From Bacilli bacterium (GTDB lineage: Bacteria; Bacillota_I; Bacilli_A; RFN20; CAG-826): a stretch of 64,000 bases of DNA. Of the stretch, positions 21,528 to 24,927 are shown piece by piece; positions within the stretch are counted from its first letter, which is position 1, and every line of letters starts with the position of its first letter. A program made the position numbers and the translations under genes. The stretch covers positions 305,699-369,698 of the forward strand of contig JAKVOO010000001.1 in NCBI GenBank assembly GCA_022482735.1, in the 5' to 3' direction. Under the pieces are notes generated by a model. It did no database searches. It saw nothing but the letters and a program-made list of their open reading frames with translations, and was not told the DNA's origin.

Positions 21528-21929
21528 TTATAAATCCTGATCGTCAAATGCAAAAGGCAATAATTCTTTTGCGTTGGTCTTTCTTACTTCGCCTTTTAAA
21601 TTGGCGAGAATAATTGGCTTATCTGCCGGGTAAAGTTCAGAAATAACTTGTCGGCACGATCCGCACGGAGAAACTGGTTCACCCGTATCAGCAATTACTG
21701 ATAGTAGAGCTAGATCTTCTTTATGGCAGCCGTGCATATAGGCATTAAAAATAGCGTTTCTCTCTGCACACATAGAAAGTCCATAGGCTGCATTTTCAAT
21801 ATTTGCACCTTCAAATACCCGTCCATCGTTTGTAACAATAACTGCTCCGACTGCAAATTTCGAATAGGGAGAATAACTTTTCTTACGTGCTTCTAAAGCC
21901 AAAGCGACAGCTTGTTTTTCATCAATCAT
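21528..21929 (-). CDS. cdd: Cytidine deaminase
   Basis: 133-residue zinc enzyme deaminating cytidine and deoxycytidine to uridine for pyrimidine salvage. Catalytic CAERNAIF supplies one zinc Cys and the Glu; PCGSCRQV supplies the other two Cys. Overlaps the ybeY end by eight bases. Works with the pyrimidine-nucleoside phosphorylase at 54-55 kb and deoC at 23.9 kb in nucleoside breakdown. Confidence 0.96.
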   Translation of the reverse strand: MIDEKQAVALALEARKKSYSPYSKFAVGAVIVTNDGRVFEGANIENAAYGLSMCAERNAIFNAYMHGCHKEDLALLSVIADTGEPVSPCGSCRQVISELYPADKPIILANLKGEVRKTNAKELLPFAFDDQDL

Positions 21930-22389
21930 TTTTCATAATCCTCTTTCCAAGTATTTTATCTTGTAAATCAAACATTTCTTTTTCATCTTCCTTTGTTTGG
22001 TGATCATAGCCAAGCAAGTGAAGCAAACCATGAAGAAAAAGAAATTTCATTTCACGATGGAATGAATGTCCATATTCAAGGGCTTGGGATTTAGCGCGGT
22101 CCACTGAAATAATGATATTACCTAATAGCATCGGCAAATCGTCAGTTTTAATTTTCACTTCCCCTTCCACCTCGTCGTTAAAGGCAAATGAAATAACATC
22201 AGTTTCACGATCTATTGCTCGGTAATCGCGATTTATCTCATGGATGCGGTCATTGTCAACTAAGTCCACCTCGAGAACGTAATGGTCAATAATATGTAAG
22301 TGTTGTAACGTCTTGTTTGCTAAGCGACGATACACCTGACGATAATTTCCAAGTTCTTGAGGATATTCGTTATTAAAATCAATTCTCAT
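21922..22389 (-). CDS. ybeY: Endoribonuclease YbeY
   Basis: 155-residue metalloprotein for 16S rRNA maturation and ribosome quality control. The zinc motif is complete as HGLLHLLGYDH near residues 114-124. The central TDVISFAFND is also typical. It leads the ybeY-cdd-era-recO genes. In Bacillus, pgpH and phoH stand upstream; here the upstream gene is the C39/membrane protein. Confidence 0.95.
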   Translation of the reverse strand: MRIDFNNEYPQELGNYRQVYRRLANKTLQHLHIIDHYVLEVDLVDNDRIHEINRDYRAIDRETDVISFAFNDEVEGEVKIKTDDLPMLLGNIIISVDRAKSQALEYGHSFHREMKFLFLHGLLHLLGYDHQTKEDEKEMFDLQDKILGKRIMKND

Positions 22390-22450
22390 AAGTTCACCTT
22401 GAGTATTGATATTTTAGCACAATATTGATTTTTTGGTCTTTTTTTTACAT

Positions 22451-23560
22451 TTAAATAGCTTTATTTAAATAATCGTCATTTTTTCTAAGCCAATAAATCA
22501 ACTGCAATAACTCATATAAGGCAAACCGAACAAGGAAAAAATAGAATAAGGCGTAATTTAACCGCGCTTTATTTTCGACGATAAGCATAAGTATAACAAT
22601 AAGTAAGGGAATAATTTCTTTTGCAAGAGCGACGATAGTCTTTTTAAAAGTTAACAATTCGGCTTTTCGCTGCAATTGTTTAATTTGTAATAAATTAATT
22701 TTGTCGTTTTTTTCCATTTGCTGCTCAATTTTTTTGATATCCAGAATTATTTGTCCAGGCTGATAATAATTAATGAGTAAAACCGTCAACAAGAAAAAAA
22801 CGAAAATAGAAATTAAGCCAAGGAATAAACTGTTGTATATGATTAATCCCAAGGACAAAATTATGCTTGTGATTTTGGCGATAACTTGAAATAAAAAGTT
22901 GTTCTTACGCGTCGAATCGCGTATATATTTAGTAAAATGAGTGTATTTTCCTTCTTCAATATGGGCAAACAAATTATGAGTACGATAAATTTTCTCATAA
23001 AGATAAAAAAGTATCGCTAGAAACAAGAGACCAATCGACACTAGATAATCACTGCCATCATTTACCAAGTATAATGCTGTTGCAAGGGCGGTTAATGTGC
23101 TTAGTTGCAAAAAAATCGTTAACATGAAAGGTAGAACATTTTTTCTTTTTAACGGCTCCCGTTTGGTTTTTTTAACTTTTTGACCAGCCTGAATAAAAAT
23201 AATATTTCCATCAATTGCCGCCATTAATTGATCGGAAGTGAGCGCGTATATTCCTAAATCTGGGTCTAAGATAATAAAACGACGATTAAGACGAGATTTA
23301 ATGGTTACAAAGTGTCCATTTCCCTCCGGCTGATGAGCAATATACCAAAAGTTTGGCTCTAATTGCCGTATGGAGGAAATTTTTATTGCCTTAGCCACTA
23401 CTCCTTTGGCTTTCAAAAAAGTTAAAATGTCCAAAAAACTCGCTGGACCTGATGGAACACTATCGTATATATAATCTTCGATATGGAACGAGTTGGCCAA
23501 CAACATCATGGCCGCATCATAACCGCAACTGCTCTTATGCGTCTTTTTACGATAAAACAT
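22451..23560 (-). CDS. C39-family peptidase fused to an exporter-like membrane domain, no ATPase
   Basis: 369-residue protein of unknown role. Residues 1-125 look like a C39 peptidase of bacteriocin exporters, with Cys12 in SSCGYDAAMMLL, His83 in GHFVTI and Asp99 in LDPDLG as a plausible triad. The Gln normally six residues before the Cys is Lys here. Residues 140-369 hold about six hydrophobic segments resembling an ABC exporter membrane domain, but the gene stops there. No nucleotide-binding domain follows in any frame before ybeY starts 61 bases later, and no double-glycine leader peptide gene is nearby. It stands where Bacillus has pgpH/phoH. An accessory peptidase or a relic of an exporter are both possible. 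Confidence 0.7.
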   Translation of the reverse strand: MFYRKKTHKSSCGYDAAMMLLANSFHIEDYIYDSVPSGPASFLDILTFLKAKGVVAKAIKISSIRQLEPNFWYIAHQPEGNGHFVTIKSRLNRRFIILDPDLGIYALTSDQLMAAIDGNIIFIQAGQKVKKTKREPLKRKNVLPFMLTIFLQLSTLTALATALYLVNDGSDYLVSIGLLFLAILFYLYEKIYRTHNLFAHIEEGKYTHFTKYIRDSTRKNNFLFQVIAKITSIILSLGLIIYNSLFLGLISIFVFFLLTVLLINYYQPGQIILDIKKIEQQMEKNDKINLLQIKQLQRKAELLTFKKTIVALAKEIIPLLIVILMLIVENKARLNYALFYFFLVRFALYELLQLIYWLRKNDDYLNKAI

Positions 23561-23603
23561 AATTCCTCCCTACTAGTAAATAGAGAAAAATTGCTTTTAT
23601 AGA

Positions 23604-23635
23604 ATAAAAAAAGCACCTCTCGGTGCTTATTTTTC
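23604..23635 (-). terminator. Terminator after rpsU
   Basis: AAGCACC-TCTC-GGTGCTT stem at 23611-23628 followed by seven T on the minus strand. It separates rpsU from the C39 gene. Confidence 0.85.
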
Positions 23636-23812
23636 TTAACGACGTCCTTTGCGACGAGCTTGTTCAGACTTAAGTTTGCGCTTAAGACCTGGCTTTAAAT
23701 AAAACTCACGCTTACGAGCTTCCGTTAAAGTTCCCGCCTTGTTGACTTGGCGCTTGAACCGACGAAGAGCTTCATCAAGCGATTCGTTGTCACGTACGAT
23801 TGTTTTCGGCAT
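23636..23812 (-). CDS. rpsU: 30S ribosomal protein S21
   Basis: 58-residue small-subunit protein, read directly from the minus strand: it begins [19 protein letters not shown] and ends QARRKGRR, the standard S21 ends. GAAGGAG lies ten bases before the ATG. It has its own promoter and terminator, so it is a single-gene unit. Confidence 0.96.
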
Positions 23813-24621: not shown

Positions 24622-24647
24622 AAAAAAAGTTGAGTTTCCTCAACTTT
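24622..24647 (-). terminator. Terminator after rpmF
   Basis: AAAGTTGAG-TTTC-CTCAACTTT stem, then seven T on the minus strand; the promoter-proximal arm overlaps the rpmF stop codon. Confidence 0.82.
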
Positions 24648-24927
24648 ATTCGGCTTTCTCTTCGGCAACAGTTGAAGTTTCAGCCACTTTTTTATCGCCG
24701 GCTTTCTTCTTTCCTTTTGTCGCTTTAGCTTTAGGAGCGGTTGATGCTTCTTCCACCGGTCCAATAACTTTTTCGCCTTTATAGTATCCACATTTTGGGC
24801 AAACTGTATGTGCAGGAATCAATGCACCACAATGGGGGCAAGTGACTAATCCAGGAACACCAAGTTTGAAGTGGGTACGCCGCATTCTCTTCCGAGTTTT
24901 GCTGGTACGTCTAAATGGTACTGCCAT
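24646..24927 (-). CDS. rpmF: 50S ribosomal protein L32 with long C-terminal extension
   Basis: 93 residues. The first 55 are a standard zinc-type L32 ([19 protein letters not shown], then CPHC and CPKC). Typical L32 is 56-60 residues; here about 35 low-complexity residues rich in Ala, Lys, Glu and Thr follow. No frameshift is needed to explain the tail. It has a consensus promoter, AAGGAGG, and its own terminator. Confidence 0.93.

Follow-up and report, generated by a model that had tools for sequence, protein, structure and literature searches.

A C39 cysteine-peptidase gene with an ABC-exporter-like membrane domain and no ATPase, conserved upstream of ybeY in an order of Bacilli

The gene that precedes ybeY in the window (the whole stretch of 64,000 nucleotides of Bacilli DNA analysed here) encodes a C39 cysteine-peptidase domain followed by six helices with the fold of an ABC exporter, and it encodes no ATPase. 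C39 domains are familiar from ATP-driven peptide exporters, of which they form the front end. In our view the best interpretation, to which we assign a probability of about 0.58, is that the protein is a membrane-anchored housekeeping C39 peptidase which was derived by stripping a peptidase-containing ABC transporter (PCAT). The ancestor would have been an old ybeY-linked PCAT. Deletion of its ATPase domain and of both coupling helices, which transmit the work of ATP, would have left the C39 peptidase in the cytosol together with a six-helix membrane domain of reduced length. On the cytosolic side the peptidase would cut one of the cell's own proteins or peptides, perhaps behind a Gly-Gly-like site, and the membrane domain would keep the enzyme, and possibly its substrate, at the membrane with no ATP-driven export.

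Domain architecture and locus in the window

Pfam places Peptidase_C39 (PF03412) at residues 7–125 of the window protein, with 38.4 bits against a curated cut-off of 22. Neither ABC_tran nor ABC_membrane was matched by Pfam in this protein, the membrane half of which lies below the reach of that database. The sole NCBIfam match is to the Mbov_0121 family (NF045998), over residues 79–159 with an E value of 3.7e-4; this model describes a 673-position transporter and has a curated cut-off of 500 bits, whereas the window protein scores 18.9.

An AlphaFold model computed with 24 relatives (pLDDT 80, pTM 0.63) contains the C39 domain and six long helices (residues 142–167, 172–202, 220–242, 246–265, 290–328 and 334–368), and a typical relative, L048, was modelled with a pLDDT of 90 and a pTM of 0.85. 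The top solved match of both models in Foldseek was PCAT1, extending over the C39 and transmembrane domains (E values of 1.3e-11 and 4.3e-14 for the window protein and L048, respectively). Other matches were to type IV exporters and to the C39 peptidase domains of ComA, PCAT1 and a LahT-type protease; SbmA (9g3d, E = 0.028) and C39-like domains were also listed. When only the membrane halves were compared as profiles with ABC transmembrane domains, the two aligned colinearly over 254 columns with a probability of 95% (E = 6e-9), and the reversed control gave 25% (E = 1.5e-4). The initial annotation, made before any database search, had read the gene as a C39 domain joined to an exporter-like membrane domain and had proposed a structural comparison with PCAT1; the Pfam match, the profile comparison and the PCAT1-like fold all agree with that reading, and the C39 half of the model does match C39. 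By analogy with PCAT1, the C39 domain is probably cytosolic.

The protein thus resembles PCAT1 and the C39 bacteriocin exporters in carrying a C39 domain followed by a type IV ABC transmembrane domain, and in its catalytic Cys-His-Asp residues. It differs from PCAT1 and the other PCATs in having neither a nucleotide-binding domain nor coupling helices, and from PCATs generally in its housekeeping locus; no cognate double-glycine peptide was found for it.

The gene order at the locus is rpmF–deoC–rpsU–C39 gene–ybeY–cdd–era–recO–glyS–dnaG–rpoD. The reading frame is intact and ends after helix 6, and since ybeY begins 61 nt past the stop codon there is no room for an ATPase domain 3' of the open reading frame (Table 1). 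The order in Bacillus is phoH–pgpH–ybeY, and the C39 gene occupies the place of pgpH (window positions 22390–23640). None of 39 genomes of the order gave an above-threshold match to PF07698, the membrane domain of PgpH. Elsewhere at the locus, rpmF (L32; 93 aa, window positions 24646–24927) has a long C-terminal extension rich in Ala, Lys and Glu, and it is long also in L002 and L012.

Table 1. Features of the C39 gene and its neighbours (window positions; empty cells, no entry)
Feature	Positions	Strand	Basis or remarks
Gene for the ATPase-less C39-membrane protein, 369 aa	22451..23560	-	ATG at 23560; order-wide orthologues
Shine-Dalgarno-like GGGAGG	23565..23570	-	Four bases 5' of the ATG
C39 peptidase domain, residues 1-127	23180..23560	-	Pfam PF03412, E=1.3e-9; model match to solved C39 domains
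Catalytic Cys12	23525..23527	-	Invariant, 73/73
Catalytic His83	23312..23314	-	Invariant, 73/73
Catalytic Asp99	23264..23266	-	Invariant, 73/73
Lys6 (AAG) replacing the oxyanion-hole Gln	23543..23545	-	Gln in 68/73 aligned
Six-helix ABC-exporter-like membrane domain	22457..23137	-	AlphaFold model, Foldseek, profile match
Shortened cytosolic loop 1, residues 202-219, without coupling helix 1	22904..22957	-	Anchor distances
Shortened cytosolic loop 2, about residues 284-290, without coupling helix 2	22691..22711	-	Anchor distances
ybeY, next gene downstream, usual neighbour of the family	21922..22389	-	
rpsU (S21), upstream neighbour in the window	23636..23812	-	In relatives dnaJ, phoH-like or others

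Conservation across the order and loss of the coupling helices

A C39 search was positive in 85 of 95 genomes of the order, and the family profile was positive in 119 of the 123 genomes of the taxonomic family to which the window belongs. Nearly all of the positives are single ATPase-less open reading frames of about 380–450 aa, which means that the window gene is not a truncation of an ATPase-bearing type; the absence of the ATPase, as initially annotated, is therefore common to the gene and its homologues in the order. Six of the ten C39-negative genomes also have no detectable ybeY, and in these the locus was probably not assembled. As for the four negatives with ybeY, a contig edge cuts the gene in G015, G028 has a run of N and G071 carries a C39-only form that the search missed, which leaves only G001 (0.4 Mb) as truly without the gene. 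The named records that carry the family come from uncultured Bacilli, for the most part of rumen and gut origin, and no description of the family was found in literature searches.

The placement in a housekeeping neighbourhood between rpsU and ybeY, also proposed initially, proved to be general. Across the order ybeY lies directly downstream in most loci, with a median gap of 35 nt; gene orders were used alongside the script count of adjacency, which missed some cases owing to an apparently fused ybeY–cdd gene and to insertions. Upstream of the C39 gene the relatives have dnaJ, rpsU, phoH-like or yqfD-like genes. In a few genera other genes intervene before ybeY, as in g33 (L063, L064 and L066), where those downstream of the C39 gene look like larC, larB and larE. 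In f5, ybeY and cdd are seemingly one fused gene of about 290–296 aa (L007:2693-3568, L011:2693-3568, L015:2702-3592 and L116:4238-5110). The C39-membrane frame itself is split in two in L116:3024-4228 and L117:2833-4040, by either a gene split or a frameshift.

The Cys, His and Asp triad, which the initial annotation had recognized, is invariant in aligned C39 proteins of all architectures, and this conservation suggests peptidase activity. The lysine noted in place of the oxyanion glutamine is indeed present in the window protein but is peculiar to that copy. The other proteins counted without the glutamine are three from f4, which have Val or Leu, and L147, the start of which falls after this position. 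Loss of this catalytic residue in the window copy and in f4 counts against the peptidase reading. Since the window copy has Lys for Gln and is fast-evolving, its own activity is uncertain and may be weak.

Over long distances the membrane half changes more, mean identity being 28% for the C39 half and 17% for the membrane half. Within genera of the family dN/dS is about 0.03–0.14 in both domains, so that neither half drifts freely; together with the conservation across the order, these values exclude chance. The purifying selection on the membrane domain suggests that it may do more than anchor the enzyme.

In type IV exporters, coupling helices 1 and 2 hold the ATPase. In a profile alignment the family has two gaps opposite the ABC segments rFFstRdiGDIi and IeniETIK, which we take to be the sites of coupling helices 1 and 2, respectively. 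Loop lengths were measured between anchors conserved in both the family and the ABC forms. For loop 1 (anchors D/E202 to N243) the distance is 42 residues in the window protein, with a median of 53 in the family compared with 67 in the ABC forms; the corresponding values for loop 2 (N243 to 332) are 90, 92.5 and 116 residues. The arms range over 45–58 residues in the family against 62–67 in the ABC forms for loop 1, and over 82–97 against 99–116 for loop 2. The coupling-helix-1 motif occurs in none of 36 family members, compared with 15 of 29 ABC forms. As judged from these alignments, the loss of the coupling helices is orderly and family-wide.

Other C39 genes upstream of ybeY

The immediate upstream neighbour of ybeY in f20 encodes a full C39-TMD-ATPase protein of about 670–690 aa, intact in eight loci and split in one. 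Mycoplasma-type genomes, in which TGA encodes Trp, likewise have a full C39-ABC gene upstream of ybeY, the distance being a few hundred bases in several of them; this direct or nearly direct linkage may be a further likeness to the Mbov_0121 family. Because other orders of the class still have a complete exporter at this locus, the initial suggestion of a membrane peptidase of a new type stands only in part: a membrane peptidase appears to be the best reading of the sequences, but the type is rather that of a PCAT minus its ATPase and coupling helices.

Reduction has gone further in some relatives. Inside the order, f2 retains C39 and one helix (167–171 aa) and f4 retains C39 with one helix or none (120–156 aa). 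In f25, a family outside the order, a gene for C39 alone abuts ybeY; it is exemplified by L147:5235-5618, which encodes a stand-alone C39 protein of 127 aa, lies directly upstream of ybeY and follows obg, rpmA and rplU. The triad is kept in all three. That the exporter has been pared to C39 with at most one helix in f2, f4 and f25 indicates that the peptidase is the part that persists. In a tree of C39 domains, the 36 sampled ATPase-less proteins fall on one side of a branch with support of 99/96, and a longer tree recovered the same grouping at 100/100 with the window protein included, the branch of which is very long (1.85–2.26).

A different form is found in f11, which uses genetic code 4. 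Twelve ybeY-linked loci in this family encode C39 proteins of about 600–680 aa without a Walker A motif (six loci in g58, one in g133, one in g194 and four in g186; L145:6045-7883, L195–L199, L201–L205 and L210). These proteins keep the C39 residues, except that one start misses the Cys region. Pfam did not find ABC_tran in L145, the one such form scanned, but the C-terminal part is recognizable as an ATPase remnant by hhalign, with a probability of 99.7% and an E value of 2.7e-24 against 0.1% for the reversed control. Sister genera within f11 retain Walker A. In the gene tree, the grouping of the dead-ATPase forms relative to the ATPase-less family has support of 75/76, and holding the f11 forms together gave a p-AU of 0.475, values compatible with a single shared loss as well as with two. 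Judged by taxonomic families, the decay of the ATPase in f11 and its loss in the order of the window look like separate events. That the motor should decay similarly in mycoplasma-type genomes suggests that cutting, not export, is what the cells need.

One core gene is thus seen as a whole exporter, with a dead ATPase, with no ATPase, with one helix and as the protease alone. The retention of the protease through these stages of dismantling argues for an unrecognized housekeeping C39 cleavage in small-genome Bacilli and possibly in mycoplasmas. Mycoplasma C39 proteins without double-glycine substrates, including that of JCVI-syn3A, have been noted as unexplained (PMC6609329). Gene 0401 of JCVI-syn3A, for which lipoyl-peptide uptake and transamidation were tentatively guessed, likewise encodes a protein with a C39 domain, and no double-glycine substrate is known from its genome (PMC6609329). 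We predict that these unexplained mycoplasma proteins may be further cases of the kind described here; gene 0401 would then be expected beside ybeY and, if it belongs with the f11 forms, would carry a dead ATPase.

Competing explanations and double-glycine peptides

A bolder form of the proposal, which we regard as rather unlikely, is that a PCAT became an ATP-independent, protease-coupled membrane machine, namely a secondary transporter or channel with a C39 protease. This machine, encoded at the ybeY locus throughout the order, would act on a housekeeping substrate, and mycoplasma-type bacteria would have lost the ATPase in parallel. The chief rival to the anchored peptidase is related to it and is also improbable in our estimation: a peptide transporter driven by protons instead of ATP, which contains its own protease and is convergent with SbmA/BacA (SLiPT). 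The SLiPTs arose from an ABC exporter by loss of the ATPase and the coupling helices (PMC13316013), and the window gene combines the same transmembrane fold with the same two losses. The appearance of SbmA among the fold matches and the purifying selection on the membrane domain also favour this rival, as do the conserved charged positions Asp206, Lys231 and Glu295 of L048. However, these were the only such positions conserved across the set, and they appear to lie on cytosolic extensions of the helices; a conserved glutamate ladder of the SLiPT type was not found in the membrane cavity. Glu191, in helix 2, is conserved (80%) in the closer set but not order-wide. The SLiPTs differ further in having no C39 domain and in possessing an extra TM0 besides their glutamate ladder, and little or nothing of the membrane domain is left in f2 and f4, which nevertheless retain the triad. 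The ATPase-less family may be a second case, beside SbmA, of an ABC transmembrane domain without a motor.

Somewhat less probable is the view that in the lineage of the window C39 is no longer catalytic and acts as a module for binding, as the C39-like domain of HlyB does. The exchange of Gln for Lys at the oxyanion hole, the very long branch with its short loops and the C39-like domains listed by the structure search would be consistent with such a role, and the HlyB-type exporters also have a C39 fold joined to an ABC transmembrane domain. However, the C39-like domain of the HlyB type has no catalytic Cys and these exporters keep their ATPase, whereas the window protein has lost the ATPase and retains Cys, His and Asp. 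The explanation would moreover apply at most to the window copy and f4, not to the family.

We consider it very doubtful that the protein is still an exporter, powered by an ATPase from another locus. Sharing of ATPases does occur among some ABC importers, and the fold is PCAT-like, but the locus has no linked ATPase gene, the segments on which an ATPase would dock are shortened in every member aligned, and the family-wide loss of the coupling helices makes such an arrangement unlikely; the failure to find a double-glycine peptide in the window genome also counts against it. Least probable of all is that the gene is a pseudogene, truncated or in decay, or that it arose as an artefact of assembly. 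The divergence of the window copy, the split frames in two relatives (G084 and G254) and the ATPase decay in mycoplasma-type genomes might suggest this, but it is at odds with an intact frame preceded by a ribosome-binding site, with the same architecture in more than 100 genomes and with dN/dS far below 1 in relatives.

The search for double-glycine peptides proposed in the initial annotation was run on the window genome as one of 58, using a 15-position profile of weak power, and found no leader over the cut-off there; a motif scan of the window gave just two implausible double-glycine open reading frames. Leaders over the cut-off were present in seven of the 58 genomes. All four genomes with an additional C39-ABC protein of 720 aa have them, compared with three of the 54 others (hypergeometric p of about 8e-5, calculated by hand). 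This supports the view that double-glycine peptides tend to go with separate full-length exporters and not with the C39-membrane gene. A query modelled on a double-glycine peptide of f17 had no match in the order, a negative that carries no weight, the last letters of this query being approximate and the search being run without a positive control. In f17 itself, a C39-ABC exporter gene is followed by a short conserved gene for a double-glycine peptide (L119:8896-9063, L121:8408-8578 and L122:3918-4127) and then by rpsU, an arrangement that looks like a chromosomal peptide-export cassette.
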